A stretch of 58,137 nt of DNA from positions 1-58,137 of the forward strand of contig CAMOXU010000004.1 of the NCBI GenBank assembly GCA_946629525.1, given 5' to 3'. Shown in pieces: positions 811-55,243 of this stretch. Each line of letters starts with the position of its first letter. Positions within the stretch are counted from its first letter, which is position 1. The translations under genes and the position numbers were made by a program. Source of the stretch: an uncultured Clostridia bacterium. Lineage in GTDB: Bacteria; Bacillota; Clostridia; Lachnospirales; Lachnospiraceae. The notes beneath the pieces are model-generated. The model was not told where the DNA came from. It saw nothing but the letters and a program-made list of their open reading frames with translations, and ran no database searches.

Positions 811-838
811 TTGACCACTACCTCAATTGTGTTATACT
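811..838 (+). promoter_or_regulatory. Promoter of the M15 peptidase gene
   Basis: TTGACC at 811-816 and TATACT at 833-838 with a 16-bp spacer. The predicted start near 845 lies just ahead of the structured element at 852-940, which would therefore sit at the 5' end of the transcript. Confidence 0.6.
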
Positions 839-851
839 GATAAATAGTATT

Positions 852-940
852 CTTATCGGAAGTTCCGAAAGGAACCCCGATAAGAAGGCCGATTTATCGG
901 CCGAAGTATGATTATGGGTTCGCGAACCGGTTTTCATGCA
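852..940 (+). ncRNA. Structured leader RNA, copy A
   Basis: Three successive hairpins. P1 pairs 852-858 with 878-884 and continues as 862-866/871-875, capped by the GNRA loop GAAA. P2 pairs 887-893 with 896-902. After the linker GAAGTATGAT, P3 pairs about 913-918 with 933-938. Copy B at 42489-42580 has the same order, nearly the same lengths and compensatory base changes. I do not recognise it as a known riboswitch. It lies between the promoter and the start of the M15 peptidase gene. Confidence 0.6.
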
Positions 941-1009
941 GAGCTTTTTATGCAGAACCGGGACCGGCTTCGTTATGCCGGGCAGAAGAAGTCCCCATGG
1001 GAGGATGAA

Positions 1010-11881: not shown

Positions 11882-11953
11882 TAGATGGAGTACGATGTCA
11901 GGACTGCCGCTTTTTGCGGCATCTTATCAACATTTATTCGTGAGGCGGAGGAA

Positions 11954-14900
11954 ATGGCGAAATCACTGATTTTATACGATGGAAAATTGAGCACAACAGA
12001 GCGTGTTGCCACCACGATCGGACATATCGTGGGCAACGTCCGGATCTGCGAGATAGCGGAAGCTCCGTCGGACATATCCATGTATGACGGCTTCTGTTTT
12101 ATTTTCAATTTTTACGGTGCGCTCACTGCGGGTAAGACAAAGTCCTTCCTGAACACCAGGAAAGAGCAGCTTATCGGCAAAAGGATCGCTTTCGTCGGCC
12201 TCGGTTTTTCCGATAAGGGCTTCACGAAGTATGTCGTCGACATGGAATTCGCGCTGGGCGGAGACCTGTCGATCACAGGCATGTTCATAGAAAATGAAAA
12301 GACGACGACGGAGGTCGGCTATCAGATCGCCAAGAAGCTGCGTGAGCCGGTGAAGCGCATGGATGAGGCGGAGCTCATGGCGGAAGTCGGGAAGTTCATT
12401 GAAAATCATCAGGTCCTTGTCATGGCGACGGGAACAGATGATTTTGTGCGCGCGACCCCGCTTGAATATATCTACAGGAACGGTGTTTTTTATGTGATCA
12501 CCGAGGGCGGTCTGAAGTACCGGTCCGTTCTGGAGAACGGCAATGCGTCCGTGACGATCTTTGATCCCTTCGACGGGACGTTTCAGCATGTTAAAAGCCT
12601 GCAGGTCTTCGGGAAGGTGGAATCCGTCAAACCCGGGACGCAGGAGTACGCCAATATTCTGGCGGTCAAAGGAATTACGGAGAGTACGCTTGCCGCTATG
12701 GACGTATCCCTCTTCGTGCTCCGTATCATGCCCCTCACCATTGAATTCCTGAATCCGGATTTTAAGGCGCGGGGATACGATGCGCGCCAGCTTACGGATA
12801 CGGTCTTCAGGAAGAAGCTGTGGGAGCAGGGGAGCGCGTTCGTACGCGACAGTTTCGAGAATACAGGAAGTATCCTGACAGGAATACAGGGACAGATGAC
12901 GGATCCCGGCCTGCAGGGAAGTGCGTCGGAAGCAGACAGCAGAGCTGCCGATGAGGCATCTCCCAAGGAGCGGATCAATGCGTATCCGGATTTGAAGGAA
13001 GGGTGGGAAATCACCGATACGGATCCGGAAGAGGGCACCGGAGAGTCAGATGCGGTTTCGGAAGAGAGCCTGGAGACGGAAGCGGCAGATGTCCGGGAAA
13101 TTTTCTCTGATCAGGACAGTGCGGACGGAGAGCCGGAAGAGAAGGGTGTCCGGAAATACAGCGCATTTGATTTTGGCGGAGGACTTCTCGGGGAAGAGGA
13201 GGAAGCAGAGGAAGAGGAAGCTCCGGAAGAAGCGGCGGAGGAGCCGGACGGGGATGAGGAAGATGCTTCTTATGAGGAGGAAGAGCCTGTTTCCGAAGGG
13301 CTTGCTGCTGAAAGCCGGAACATGGCGGAGGAAGTCCGCCGCATGATGGAGCTCCGCAGCACGGAAGAAGCTCCGTCGGAGGAGAAAGAGGAGAACGTTC
13401 CTGACGAGGAGGAACTGGAGGAATATCGTGATCTCTTCGGAGGTGTGGAAGATCTGCATCGGAGCGGAGAGAAAGAGAAGAAGACGCCGCTGATCGAGCG
13501 GGAGGGAAGGGTCGACCTTCGGGAATATCTGGATGAGATGGATATCGACGAGGAGGATCTCGACGACGAAGAGGAAGAATACGAGGAAGAGGAAGAAGAG
13601 GAAGAAGAGGATTATCTGGAGAGAAAGCGTCCTAAGAAAGACAGAAGACGAGGCTTCTTCGCCACAGGATTCGGGAAGGGTCTGAGCCGTTTCCTCGGCA
13701 TCGACGATGAGGAAGAGGATGAGGACGAAGACGAGGACGAGGACGACGAGGAAGACGGCTATGACGAAGCCGAGACAGAGGAGGAAGTGACCTACAGGAA
13801 GTCCTGGATGGAGCGCTTCCGGGCCCGGAGAGACGATGAGGAGCTGATGGACGAGCTGCGCGCGGACCGCGAAGAGGAGCCCGACGAGCTTGATGAGCTG
13901 CTTCTGAAATACGGGTCAGATGAGGATGATTCGTATGATGAGGATGACGGGGAACCGGATTCTCTCGACGCTGAGTATGAGGACGACGGTGAATATGACG
14001 ATGAGGAGAGCTCCGGAACGGTAATGAAGTCCGGGGCGGCGGATGTGTCCGGGAACACGACGGATTCGGATGAAGAGGAATTCGGGGATCCGGATGACTT
14101 CTCTGACGGGGACGAGGACTGGTATGATGAGTCCGACGATTCCGACGAAGAGTATGATGAGGACGCAGAGTACGACGAGGACGAAGAAGAGTACGACGAT
14201 TCCGATGAAGAAGAGTATGAGGAGGATGAAGAACCTGCCGGACGATCAGCGAAAAAATCCGGTGAAAGCTGGATAAAGAGGATCATAAGACTCGGACTTG
14301 GCGGAAAGAATGCAGCCGATGAGGATGACGAGTACGACGAATCCGACGATGAAGAAGAATCGGAAGAGTACGAGTACGAGGGTTCCGATGAGGAAGAATC
14401 GGAAGAGTACGAGTACGAAGATTCTGATGAGGAAGAATCGGACGAGTATGAGTACGAGGACTCCGATGAGGAAGAATCGGAAGAGTACGAGTACGAAGAT
14501 TCTGATGAGGAAGAATCGGACGAGTATGAGTACGAGGACTCCGATGAGGAAGAATCGGAAGAGTACGAGTACGAAGATTCTGATGAGGAAGAATCGGAAG
14601 AGTACGAGTACGAATATTCTGATGAGGAAGAATCGGATGAGTATGAGTACGAGGACTCCGATGAAGAAGATTCGGATGCATACGAATATGAGATCTCCGA
14701 TGACGAGGCAGAATCGGACGAGTACGCTGGTGAAGACGCAGATGAGGCTGAAGACGCGGCTGAATATGTGTTTGAAGAAGTTGACGAATCCGAGATCAGC
14801 TCAGGAGCTTATGCGAAGGCGTCTGAAGAGGAGCTCGCGCAGCCGGCAGAGCCTGAAGAGAAAGTTGAACTGACGGAGGAGATATCTGAGCCGGAAGCGG

Positions 14901-17098
14901 CTGCGGAGCCTGAGGAGGAGCCTGAACTGGCGGAAGAGCCGGAAGAACCTGAGGCAGAAGTCGAACCGGTTGAGGAGATACCGGAGCCGGAAGAGACAGC
15001 AGAGCCTGAAGAAGAACCCGAACCGGTTAAGGAGATACCGGAGCCGGAAGAGACAGCAGAGCCTGAAGAAGAACCCGAACCGGTTGAGGAGATACCGGAG
15101 CCGGAAGAGACCGCGGAGCCTGAAGAAGAACTTGAACCGGTTGAGGAGATATTAGAGCCGGAAGAGACAGCAGAGCCCGAAGAAGAGCCCGAACCGGCTG
15201 AGGAGATATTAGAGCCGGCAGAAGCATCAGAGACTGAAGAGGAGATCGAACAGTCCGAAGAAGTATCAGAACCCGAAGAAATCTTTGCCTCTGAGATGGA
15301 GGAAGATGTACCTGTCAAAAAGACCATTCCTGAAAGGAAAGAATCGGTCGAGAGATTCTGGTGGGACGCTGATTTTGCGGATCATGCCGGGGAGGAGATC
15401 ACGGACTTCCGGGAAGTCATTGAGGAGGATGAGATCGTTCGCGGACCCGGCGCCGTTCAGACTTCGGAGCCGGCCGATGAAGGATATGACCTGGATGAGG
15501 CAGACGCTGGGGACGAGGCAGATTCATACGAAGATGATGTCGACGAGAATGAGGATGACGAGTACGAATCCGACGGGTACGAGGACGATGATGAGTACGA
15601 ATCCGACGAGTATGAAGAAGATGACGAGTATGAATCGGATGAGGACGATGAGTACGAAGACGATGATGAGTACGAAGAAGAGGAGCCGGACAGGGTCTCT
15701 GATCTCAGCGAACGAATAAGAGGTGTCTTCGGTCGTCTTTTTGGCCGGGGACCTGCAAGGTCTTCGGACGACTACGATGACGACGAGTATGACGACGAAG
15801 AGGACGAATACGCAGACGACGAAGTCGATGATGAGTACGAAGATGGCGAGTACGAGTATATCGATGACGAAGACGACGAGTACGAAGATGGCGAGTACGA
15901 GTATGTCGATGACGAAGACGATGAGTACGAAGATGCTGAGTACGAGGATGATGATGCGTATGAGGATGAAAGCGGGTATGGGGACAGTGAGACCGCTGCA
16001 GTTAAGCAGCCGGACATCGCTGCCTCTGCAGCCGCAGACCGTGTGGAGCCGGACGAATATGATGAATCCGACGAATATGATGAATCCGACGAATATGATG
16101 AATCCGACGAATACGATGAATCCGACGAGTACGGTGAAGCGGACAAATACGATGAGCCGGACGAATACGATGAATCCGACGAGTACGATGAAACGGATGC
16201 GTACGATGATTCTGAAGAATACGACGAAGACGAGTACGATGATTCCGATGAATCCGACGAAGACGATGATTCGGATGAGTATGACGAAGACGAGTATGAA
16301 GAGGACGAGGACAGAGGCAGTGCATTCTCCGCTGTGAAAGGCTGGTTCGGTCGTCTGAAGGAGCGCTTCTCTTCGGATAAGGATGAGGACGACGAGGACG
16401 AAGACGAGGAAGAGTACGACGAAGACGGGGACGACGAAGACGGGTATGACGATGAGGAAGATGCGGACGATGAGGACGCGGAATCCGAAGATGCAGACGA
16501 CACGGATTCGTATGAAGACGATCTTTACGACGAGGATGCCTGGGACGATACGGACGAGGATGAAGAAGGACAGGGATCTGTTCTCGGGAGGCTTTTTGGC
16601 GGCAGGCTCGGCCGTAAGAAATCCGGATCCGGCAGATCCGCATCGATCGATGAGCCCGAAGAAGAGCCGGACTTCGATGAGATGGAGGACGAGGATGTTT
16701 TCTTCGCTGATCTGGGAGACGATGAGCGGGTTCGCAGATCCGGACGGACCAGAACGGCCGCGCGGAAAAAGGACCGGACAGACATCTCCAGAGAGGACAG
16801 CTATTACTCCGACATCCGTACGTCGAGCCGGTATTCGGAATCTCAATACAACGACGATCTTTCCATGGAGGAGATTCCCGACAATATGACCATCCGGGGA
16901 GAGGACTTTACGCAGATGCTCCGCAAGGCTGTGCGCGATGTGCGGAACGGCGGTGAAGCGGCTTCCGGCACCTCACGCGGCAGAAACAGCGATGAGGCGG
17001 ATGATCCGTACGACGGAGAGATCATACCGGGCAGCGCATATGACGCCTCCCGGGGCATGACGATCGCAGGGTTCGATGAGGACTCGGAAAATGGCTAA
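11954..17098 (+). CDS. Giant flavodoxin / FMN split-barrel protein with about 1350-residue acidic repeat tail
   Basis: A 1714-residue cytoplasmic protein starting at the ATG at 11954 (GGAGGAA upstream). Residues 1 to about 140 are flavodoxin-like (MAKSLILYDGKLSTTERVA at the N-terminus, and RIAFVGLGFSDKG). Residues about 155-275 resemble a pyridoxamine-phosphate-oxidase-type FMN split barrel (VMATGTDDFVRATPLEYIYR). Both could bind FMN and suggest redox function. From about residue 340 the chain is Asp/Glu/Tyr/Ser-rich low complexity with several repeat families. It is broken by short basic, aromatic segments such as KGWFGRLKERFSS and RIRGVFGRLFGRG. The C-terminus returns to normal composition (EDFTQMLRKAVRDVRNGGEA). 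The reading frame is open throughout, so selection keeps it. It overlaps the DUF3810 gene by 8 bp. I know no characterised protein of this architecture. Confidence 0.8.
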   Translation: MAKSLILYDGKLSTTERVATTIGHIVGNVRICEIAEAPSDISMYDGFCFIFNFYGALTAGKTKSFLNTRKEQLIGKRIAFVGLGFSDKGFTKYVVDMEFALGGDLSITGMFIENEKTTTEVGYQIAKKLREPVKRMDEAELMAEVGKFIENHQVLVMATGTDDFVRATPLEYIYRNGVFYVITEGGLKYRSVLENGNASVTIFDPFDGTFQHVKSLQVFGKVESVKPGTQEYANILAVKGITESTLAAMDVSLFVLRIMPLTIEFLNPDFKARGYDARQLTDTVFRKKLWEQGSAFVRDSFENTGSILTGIQGQMTDPGLQGSASEADSRAADEASPKERINAYPDLKEGWEITDTDPEEGTGESDAVSEESLETEAADVREIFSDQDSADGEPEEKGVRKYSAFDFGGGLLGEEEEAEEEEAPEEAAEEPDGDEEDASYEEEEPVSEGLAAESRNMAEEVRRMMELRSTEEAPSEEKEENVPDEEELEEYRDLFGGVEDLHRSGEKEKKTPLIEREGRVDLREYLDEMDIDEEDLDDEEEEYEEEEEEEEEDYLERKRPKKDRRRGFFATGFGKGLSRFLGIDDEEEDEDEDEDEDDEEDGYDEAETEEEVTYRKSWMERFRARRDDEELMDELRADREEEPDELDELLLKYGSDEDDSYDEDDGEPDSLDAEYEDDGEYDDEESSGTVMKSGAADVSGNTTDSDEEEFGDPDDFSDGDEDWYDESDDSDEEYDEDAEYDEDEEEYDDSDEEEYEEDEEPAGRSAKKSGESWIKRIIRLGLGGKNAADEDDEYDESDDEEESEEYEYEGSDEEESEEYEYEDSDEEESDEYEYEDSDEEESEEYEYEDSDEEESDEYEYEDSDEEESEEYEYEDSDEEESEEYEYEYSDEEESDEYEYEDSDEEDSDAYEYEISDDEAESDEYAGEDADEAEDAAEYVFEEVDESEISSGAYAKASEEELAQPAEPEEKVELTEEISEPEAAAEPEEEPELAEEPEEPEAEVEPVEEIPEPEETAEPEEEPEPVKEIPEPEETAEPEEEPEPVEEIPEPEETAEPEEELEPVEEILEPEETAEPEEEPEPAEEILEPAEASETEEEIEQSEEVSEPEEIFASEMEEDVPVKKTIPERKESVERFWWDADFADHAGEEITDFREVIEEDEIVRGPGAVQTSEPADEGYDLDEADAGDEADSYEDDVDENEDDEYESDGYEDDDEYESDEYEEDDEYESDEDDEYEDDDEYEEEEPDRVSDLSERIRGVFGRLFGRGPARSSDDYDDDEYDDEEDEYADDEVDDEYEDGEYEYIDDEDDEYEDGEYEYVDDEDDEYEDAEYEDDDAYEDESGYGDSETAAVKQPDIAASAAADRVEPDEYDESDEYDESDEYDESDEYDESDEYGEADKYDEPDEYDESDEYDETDAYDDSEEYDEDEYDDSDESDEDDDSDEYDEDEYEEDEDRGSAFSAVKGWFGRLKERFSSDKDEDDEDEDEEEYDEDGDDEDGYDDEEDADDEDAESEDADDTDSYEDDLYDEDAWDDTDEDEEGQGSVLGRLFGGRLGRKKSGSGRSASIDEPEEEPDFDEMEDEDVFFADLGDDERVRRSGRTRTAARKKDRTDISREDSYYSDIRTSSRYSESQYNDDLSMEEIPDNMTIRGEDFTQMLRKAVRDVRNGGEAASGTSRGRNSDEADDPYDGEIIPGSAYDASRGMTIAGFDEDSENG
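14342..14735 (+). repeat. 39-bp coding tandem repeat (SDEEES-E/D-EYEYED)
   Basis: About ten in-frame units of 13 codons (the first is 42 bp), with starts at 14342, 14384, 14423 and then every 39 bp. Alternating E/D versions create a 78-bp higher-order repeat, a sign of recent expansion by slippage or unequal crossing-over. Confidence 0.9.
14963..15247 (+). repeat. 57-bp coding tandem repeat (Glu/Pro-rich)
   Basis: Five in-frame units of 19 codons starting at 14963, 15020, 15077, 15134 and 15191. The unit reads EPVEEIPEPEETAEPEEEP. It differs from the Asp/Tyr repeats on either side and probably forms an extended, stiff acidic spacer. Confidence 0.9.
15830..15964 (+). repeat. 45-bp coding tandem repeat (DEYEDGEYEY type)
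   Basis: Three in-frame units of 15 codons starting at 15830, 15875 and 15920, unit DEYEDGEYEYIDDED with small changes. Confidence 0.85.
16052..16213 (+). repeat. 18-bp coding tandem repeat (DEYDES)
   Basis: Nine in-frame six-codon units from 16052; the first four are almost identical at the DNA level and later ones vary (DEYGEA, DKYDEP, DEYDET, DAYDDS). Confidence 0.9.
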
Positions 17099-21860: not shown

Positions 21861-21984
21861 GATTTGTTTGTATTATCAAGACCGCTTTGTGAACCCGATG
21901 ATCCGGATCCGGCCGGTCGAACGGCCTGACCGCCGGCAGTTCCTGCGGATTTTCTGATAAGAAGTATTGTATCGAGGTGGATGT

Positions 21985-42295: not shown

Positions 42296-42311
42296 GAACG
42301 ATAAAAACTTA

Positions 42312-42342
42312 TAGCCGCCCGCTTGCAAAAGCCGGGCGGCTA
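42312..42342 (+). terminator. Terminator-like hairpin after telA
   Basis: A perfect 10-bp stem TAGCCGCCCG/CGGGCGGCTA (42312-42321, 42333-42342). The following sequence GTGTATTG is not a T-run, so termination may be weak. A possible promoter (TTGTTA, TATAGT) follows near 42350-42376. Confidence 0.5.
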
Positions 42343-42488
42343 GTGTATTGTTACTGCATATGACGAAATATAGTAACTGCCTTGTTTCTGCCGGATCAGA
42401 TCCGGCGGGATGCGGAGCGGCTGCGGCCGCGCTGCCGGGCAGTTGCGGATATACGGGTGCCGGGGTCTGTGCGACGCCGGCAGCGGAT

Positions 42489-42580
42489 CTTATCGGATGT
42501 TCCGTGAGGAGCTGCCGATAAAAAAGCCGGTTTTCCGGCCGAATTATGATCATCGGGCCCGCGAAGCGGTTCCGATGACG
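42489..42580 (+). ncRNA. Structured leader RNA, copy B (valS leader)
   Basis: The same three-hairpin order as copy A. P1: TTATCGG (42490-42496) with CCGATAA (42515-42521), and GTTCC/GGAGC capped by the GNRA loop GTGA (42504-42507). P2: GCCGG (42526-42530) with CCGGC (42535-42539). Linker GAATTATGAT. P3: CATCGG (42551-42556) with CCGATG (42572-42577), enclosing CCGC-GAA-GCGG. No T-box motif is seen anywhere in the valS leader. It lies about 35 nt before the valS start. Confidence 0.65.
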
Positions 42581-42612
42581 TAAGATATGTCGCAAAACGC
42601 TACGGAGGAATT

Positions 42613-55041: not shown

Positions 55042-55243
55042 GGCAAATGCTGTGACATGATAGCTATGAAGCGTGAAGTTGCTGCACATGCGTTGCAGGT
55101 TCTCCGTGGAGCGAATGTCATGTAAGGATACTGGCGACAAGTCACTGTGCAATTTAGCCTGTCTTATATAGACGGAGCATCGTGCGGAATTCTTATAAAA
55201 AAGAAACGCACGGAGATGTGTACAGTCACCGCTTGTCGTACTC

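Follow-up and report, generated by a model that had tools for sequence, protein, structure and literature searches.

A 93-bp Three-hairpin Sequence Upstream of an M15 Peptidase Gene and valS Is Probably a Structured, Non-autonomous Mobile Repeat of Lachnospiraceae

Results

Features of the Window

The window is the whole 58,137-nucleotide stretch analyzed here and belongs to a Lachnospiraceae genome, designated G000 (2.73 Mb in 163 contigs, 82% complete). A gene for an M15 peptidase and valS are each preceded by a copy of the same short element, and a third copy, beyond the two described in an earlier note on this DNA, lies before an NlpC/P60 gene. Copies were scored with a covariance model (R1) made from 41 copies of G000. 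The relevant features are as follows.

811 to 838, plus strand: sigma-70-like promoter (TTGACC, 16 nt, TATACT), immediately preceding copy 1 and belonging to the host site
850 to 886, plus strand: P1 hairpin of copy 1, GAAA loop at 867-870 (from the fold and from covariation of the same helix)
851 to 941, plus strand: copy 1, leader of the M15 peptidase gene (70.4 bits with R1), with no target duplication of its own
887 to 902, plus strand: P2 hairpin of copy 1; read as 902-887 on the minus strand, it scored as terminator-like
911 to 937, plus strand: P3 hairpin of copy 1, one base of the 5' arm missing (from alignment and fold)
21871 to 21962, minus strand: copy 3, decayed, antisense before the NlpC/P60 gene (21967-23580, plus strand); 35.2 bits with R1, E = 6.6e-7
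42484 to 42485, plus strand: left CG of the apparent 2-bp target duplication at copy 2 (flank comparison)
42488 to 42580, plus strand: copy 2, leader of valS (90.3 bits with R1), absent from the orthologous leader of genome G035
42579 to 42580, plus strand: right CG of the same duplication (flank comparison)

The promoter upstream of copy 1 matches at 10 of 12 positions, with 0.3 such sites expected in shuffles of the region. Elsewhere, the window contains an S10-Clostridia ribosomal protein leader (55058-55140, 79.7 bits) and an open frame of 1737 codons (11885-17098). Synthetase genes of Clostridia often carry a T-box; none was found at gathering score in the valS leader (42300-42612).

The earlier note had presented positions 852-940 and 42489-42580 as two versions of one structured RNA. 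Direct reading and alignment of the sequence confirmed that both stretches exist and can be aligned from TCTTATCGG to the end of P3, and that each comprises P1 with a GAAA or GTGA loop, P2, P3 and the common linker GGCCGAA-TATGAT. Two of the pair changes that it listed, A-T to G-C in P2 and G-C to C-G in P3, were likewise found in the alignment. The complete element is 93 bp long, runs from KA-TCTTATCGG to CTCATAA and consists of three separate hairpins. In single-strand folding, both copies lie far below dinucleotide shuffles, with z values of -6.1 and -4.2. When the valS copy is folded together with its flanks, part of P1 is paired to sequence farther upstream in the minimum-energy structure; the assignment of P1 in this copy therefore rests on the family and not on its own fold.

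A search of the window and eight further loci against Rfam at gathering scores returned only the S10-Clostridia leader and a tRNA, both elsewhere in the window, and the best sub-threshold score for the element was at chance level. The statement that it belongs to no known riboswitch or Rfam class was thereby upheld.

Fold and Covariation

Pairing was assessed in three sets of copies. Among 41 copies of G000, 91.0% of cells were paired, compared with 84.8% in shuffles; 85 cells had changed on both sides (23.0 in shuffles), such changes affected 18 of the 34 pairs (9.4 in shuffles), and the covariation score was 0.230, with no slid version above 0.065. The congener set of 43 copies (42 distinct), aligned by sequence only, gave 92.8% paired cells (83.7% in shuffles), both-side changes in 14 pairs (10.1) and in 113 cells (29.7) and a covariation score of 0.273 (0.112 for comparison). 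Further pair types in this set numbered 36 as against 32.7, a value reached by 32 of 500 shuffles. In the cross-genus set (29 copies from eight genera, 14 of them from the window's genus), the alignment was fitted to the model and leans towards structure; here, 24 of the 34 pairs had changed on both sides, in 146 cells compared with 38.6, and the score was 0.461 compared with 0.182.

The linker is conserved in the family, and the AAT at the right end of the element pairs with the foot of P3 and covaries with it. These alignments lend good support to the view that compensatory change has maintained the helices throughout the family, and the selection on folded structure that the earlier note had proposed draws on far more than two copies. 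The family keeps its fold as RNA or single-stranded DNA. Both strands fold, as DNA and as RNA, and either may be the folded one.

Copy Number, Arrays and Distribution

Used as a BLAST query against its own genome, copy 1 returned 60 matches, 57 of them with E < 1e-8. R1 found at least 140 matches at E <= 0.01 in G000 (150 of 1661 candidates scored), a count that includes truncated and opposite-strand echo matches, and an iterated profile over the fetched loci recovered, with fragments counted, at least 118 copies in G000 and a further 49 from nine congeners. The 130 arrays in these ten genomes comprised 100 single, 23 double and seven triple units, arranged head-to-tail. Several contigs of G000 end within the element, so arrays probably break the assembly. 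Identical units were present at unrelated loci (C8:1462 and C75:10977).

Distribution within the genus was patchy: 13 of 37 genomes had matches, copy number in congeners ranged from 1 to at least 50, and some insertions were common to two of them (G020 and G022). No matches were obtained in 24 genomes from other families of the order. A search of 299 genomes of the family with R1 (14 candidates scored per genome) gave 11 genomes at E <= 1e-6, nine of them from other genera. In seven of these nine, P1, the A-run, P2, the linker and P3 were all kept with different stem sequences. The copies in other genera have thus preserved pairing and not sequence, which is the opposite of homologues that keep sequence and lose pairing. 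Head-to-tail units were also present in G258, G210, G260 and G288.

For G115 and G273, the clear units were limited to P3-like tandem ones. P3-only tandem units of ~36 nt were seen at L258 (1120-1300) and L257 (1190-1262), and such units suggest independent multiplication of P3 together with its GATTA/TAATA foot.

An exact core pattern of the element occurred in 13 stretches among 84,980 species genomes, a collection that may omit records close to that of the window. The assemblies concerned are titled Lachnospiraceae or Clostridiales bacterium, and one came from goat ileum. A class-wide search of 391 genomes with a second model (R2) at E 1e-5 found only the window's own genome; given that 11 candidates were scored per genome, this absence is weak evidence. 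Phages, plasmids and viral contigs gave no match, the viral contigs having been searched with the exact core pattern only.

Empty Sites, Target Sequence and Duplication

Empty sites were found for several copies. The element sits within a second dispersed repeat, GCGATGAAGAATAAAAGCCTCCGGCGGATCGCAG, the empty form of which is common, and within a third repeat (C14 of G000), the empty form of which is present in G035 and in G000 itself. The joined flanks at C14, at the second repeat and at the valS copy (compared with G035) were six bases longer than the empty site. If KA and AA are counted as the terminal bases of the element, the gain is TT at C14 and TA at the second repeat. At the GH32 gene, the leader of G035 could not be aligned and no empty site could be read.

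The duplication was examined in a post hoc selection of 43 loci whose ends were intact, out of 86 non-redundant loci with both flanks. The same dinucleotide stood on both sides at 28 of these loci and differed at 15; 20.8 identical pairs were expected, and 2 of 5000 shuffles reached the observed number. A dinucleotide other than TA was matched at five of the 43 loci, where 0.55 were expected and none of 5000 shuffles reached five. These were TG twice, TT twice and CG once, the last at the valS copy. One TG case (C3) is an array, and one TT case (C5:30937) follows an older copy that is truncated; these two are accordingly weaker. The register of the duplication gave a z value of 4.0, compared with 2.2 and 2.7 for the neighboring registers. 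A longer target duplication (4 to 8 bp) was also considered and was narrowed to 2 bp, the longer likeness between flanks being composed of the target consensus and of ends carried by the element.

The left-flank consensus is ATAATA before KA, and the right-flank consensus is AATA. Of 108 first copies, 40 had TATAAT with at most one mismatch at a fixed position, and in 18 the match was perfect; elsewhere in the flanks, the corresponding frequencies were 3.4 and 0.3%. The flank logo showed no -35 signal, columns -45 to -14 all having <=0.10 bit. For first copies with a -10 box and a same-strand gene within 150 nt, a -35 box (at most two mismatches) was present in 9 of 20 cases, compared with 4.1 in shuffles; for the remaining first copies, the values were 7 of 20 and 4.05. 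Promoters as such were rejected as the target because the logo lacks a -35 box. The comparisons of flanks and empty sites indicate insertion with a 2-bp duplication (TA more often than TT, TG or CG) at ATAATA-like sites and, given this target, frequently behind -10 boxes.

No terminal inverted repeats were found, the ends KATCTTATCGG and CTCATAA not being inverted copies of one another. With regard to a MITE in the strict sense, the element has the target-site duplication (2 bp) and lacks the terminal inverted repeats; in the wider sense of a small intergenic mobile repeat, its many copies are dispersed, intergenic, inserted and folded. In the light of these results, the element is very probably a new structured, non-autonomous mobile repeat of 93 bp with three hairpins, inserted at many sites.

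Candidates for the Mobilizing Enzyme

The element could instead be a REP-like or palindromic element moved as single-stranded DNA by a Y1 enzyme (IS200/IS605 or REP-associated), with the foot of P3 as a guide that pairs with the cleavage site. The hairpins fold well as DNA, the terminal AAT pairs and covaries with the P3 foot, and the P3-only tandem units of G115 and G273 would also fit. In the genus (37 genomes), all 10 strong carriers had Y1 as a gene or a fragment, compared with 11 of the 27 others. Against this stands the lack of any Y1 match in four of the nine carriers from other genera (G260, G257, G288 and G210), of which G260 is 99% complete and has near-identical copies, and G210 and G288 are incomplete. 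In addition, the element model found nothing better than E 0.21 at 30 Y1 loci. G000 itself has one IS200-type Y1 gene (L048, 76-552), the ends of which are unlike those of the element in sequence. A 2-bp duplication would not normally be expected of Y1 enzymes. Given the four carriers without a match, the lack of elements beside Y1 loci and the unlike ends, Y1 is not favored as the mobilizer, and we regard this rival account of the element as unlikely.

This IS200 and the hairpin element may have a TATT target in common, as judged from two insertions.

Gene Context

Genes were called by a simple caller trained on the window. Of the 89 arrays in G000, 3 overlapped a called gene by >30 nt, as did 1 of 41 in the congeners. 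The gene downstream was on the same strand as the array in 58 cases and on the other strand in 19, with no call in 12. Between co-directional genes, 25 arrays were sense and 10 antisense; a further 26 lay in divergent and six in convergent gaps. The corresponding figures for the 41 congener arrays were 20 on the same and nine on the other strand, and, with five sense and seven antisense arrays between co-directional genes, the sense bias of G000 was not repeated. Ten neighboring genes were sampled, eight of which had a Pfam family above the cut-off, one a family below the cut-off and one no family. The families had no common theme (M15 peptidase, valS, NlpC/P60, GH32, radical SAM, Ham1, Asp23 and DivIC).

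For valS, 30 loci were available from 41 genomes and gave one full match, that of the window's own genome, and none in the 29 congener loci. G035 and G033, in which ValS is 94% identical, lack the element before valS. Weak, decayed relatives right behind a promoter were found before valS in three genomes: G025 and G017 with the model (18.2 and 11.4 bits) and G003 by eye.

These data bear on the reading of the element as a new and very common class of cis-regulatory RNA, either a riboswitch or a protein-binding leader. Strong covariation, the same-strand gene downstream of 58 of the 77 G000 arrays with a called gene, the start of copy 1 just behind a promoter, the weak relatives that three species have where valS transcripts would start and the pairing largely kept in old-looking copies (below) are all in its favor. 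However, no full match precedes valS in any of the 29 congener loci, the downstream genes are unrelated, copies occur in tandem and antisense, and the insertion sites carry target duplications. Given neighbors with no theme and close relatives whose valS lacks the element, a riboswitch is unlikely, and the probability of a cis-regulatory class of either kind is judged to be very low. The earlier note had left two options, a new cis-regulator and a small structured repeat. Only the second is borne out, the first being at odds with the valS relatives that have no full match, the unrelated genes, the antisense and between-gene copies and the empty sites.

Pairing in Old Copies

The decay of single copies was followed by several measures. 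Rare letters were equally frequent in paired and unpaired columns (1.77 and 1.78%), and rare departures to G-U and to A-C were alike in number (28 versus 24; 15 versus 8 in the congeners), which favors neutral decay. The excess of rare Watson-Crick changes on both sides (39) over non-pairing double changes (21) speaks against plain neutral decay. Pairing also falls with model score, a relation that is partly circular. When age was taken as the divergence of unpaired columns, the paired share in 87 G000 copies was 92.9, 87.5 and 88.7% by thirds (rho -0.42), and that in 42 congener copies was 92.2, 94.1 and 93.3% (rho -0.09); the copies so dated were found with the model, which favors paired ones and may bias these figures. 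Neutral decay is not borne out in the congeners by this independent measure of age, and single copies may be under selection in place or may decay neutrally.

Other Origins and the Terminator-like P2

Descent as a miniature form from a transposon of the IS630/Tc1 type, a kind that duplicates TA, would account for the 2-bp duplication and its preference for TA. The absence of terminal inverted repeats, the duplication of TT, TG and CG as well and the occurrence of IS630-type DDE_3 genes in only 2 of 13 carriers (1 of 12 others, and not in G000) make IS630 unlikely as the mobilizer, and such an origin for the element has very little probability.

In three sets of copies, a terminator-like signal was scored on the bottom strand in 65 of 97, 41 of 44 and 17 of 22 copies, and was located in P2 in 64, 41 and 16 of these; the top strand gave such a signal in 1, 0 and 0 copies. 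In the family, the A-run precedes P2, so that P2 resembles an intrinsic terminator on the minus strand only. For arrays between co-directional genes, P2 was terminator-like in 13 of 17 antisense and 15 of 30 sense cases. With a one-way terminator of this kind, sense insertions behind a promoter could be tolerated. The retention of the signal in antisense copies, at least as often as in sense ones, is no help to this idea, unless P2 terminates the upstream gene.

The conservation of the terminator-like P2 across genera, together with that of the linker, might also point to a dispersed family of bottom-strand sRNA genes (P3 hairpin, AU-rich linker, P2 terminator), a highly improbable reading that leaves P1 with no role and would call for a bottom-strand promoter, and against which the empty sites and target duplications point to insertion.

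Discussion

If the element is a structured, non-autonomous mobile repeat, the following sequence of events would account for its features. Insertion, as the comparisons show, takes place with a 2-bp duplication, preferably of TA, at an ATAATA-like sequence that is often a -10 box, and the sense orientation at such boxes would follow from the directionality of TATAAT. The right end, CATAA-TA, would rebuild the target, so that further copies land in register; this would explain arrays with a spacing of 94-96 nt. A putative enzyme acting in trans would recognize the folded element, which may be why the fold is conserved in an element with no terminal inverted repeats. Copies behind a -10 box would become the 5' end of an mRNA, and P2 with the A-run may stop transcription from the opposite side and let the gene's own transcription pass, by which promoter insertions would be tolerable. 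Effects on the host would be by-products and not the reason for the structure.

A more far-reaching version of this scheme is put forward only tentatively. The repeat might represent a new class of element in which the folded single strand, RNA or DNA, is the enzyme's substrate; its targets would be -10 boxes, perhaps in the form of the melted strand within the open complex, its antisense-only terminator would render landing in promoters harmless, and it would have spread through the Lachnospiraceae with its shape kept and its sequence replaced.

Among known systems, REP/REPIN sequences are short palindromes of high copy number that occur in arrays. The consensus of the present element has no GTAG-type tag, and four of the nine carriers from other genera gave no Y1 match; these two features and the 2-bp duplication set it apart from REP. 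CIR elements have a GANTC methylation motif and two arms, where the present element has three, and occur in a different phylum. CIR of Caulobacter and Brucella is described as two arms and a linker with no terminal inverted repeats and with TA at the termini (PMC2229807), and the present element resembles it in its arms joined by a linker, in the lack of inverted ends and in the TA termini. The same source describes ERIC/IRU of enterobacteria (127 bp) as small, intergenic and folded, with TA termini and target duplication, and its mobilizing enzyme as not shown; it gives ERIC 7-bp terminal inverted repeats and states that most such repeats fold end to end (PMC2229807). Compared by description, the present element is like ERIC as a small, intergenic, folded repeat with TA and a target duplication and differs from it in that its ends are not inverted and its three hairpins are separate. 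In Streptococcus pneumoniae, BOX and RUP have high copy number and RNA-like secondary structure, BOX being built of tandem modules, and both are seen as parasitic rather than host elements; they have inverted ends like those of resident IS elements (PMC3049150). The present element lacks such ends, and its tandem unit is the whole element. No description of the present element was recognized in searches of the open-access literature.

It is common to regard covariation as proof that an RNA has a function in its host. The helices described here belong to an inserting element and may reflect the requirements of its own spread. If transposition acts on the fold as its substrate, the family offers a direct way to a new mobilizing enzyme, and identical copies, empty sites and carriers with no detected Y1 or IS630 gene are already in hand. 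Through insertion behind -10 boxes, unrelated genes acquire a common structured 5' end, with possible consequences for RNA decay and antisense transcription.

The second dispersed repeat also has features of its own. It often occurs as inverted pairs ~87 nt apart (in G000, G016, G020, G022, G033 and G035; for example, at L198 and L200), and its 16-base core is found once in G016, G000 and four congeners having 15 to 73 occurrences each. In G033 (L200), a close copy of the IS200-type Y1 gene is inserted in this repeat, where it occupies the site used by the hairpin element and runs in the opposite direction.
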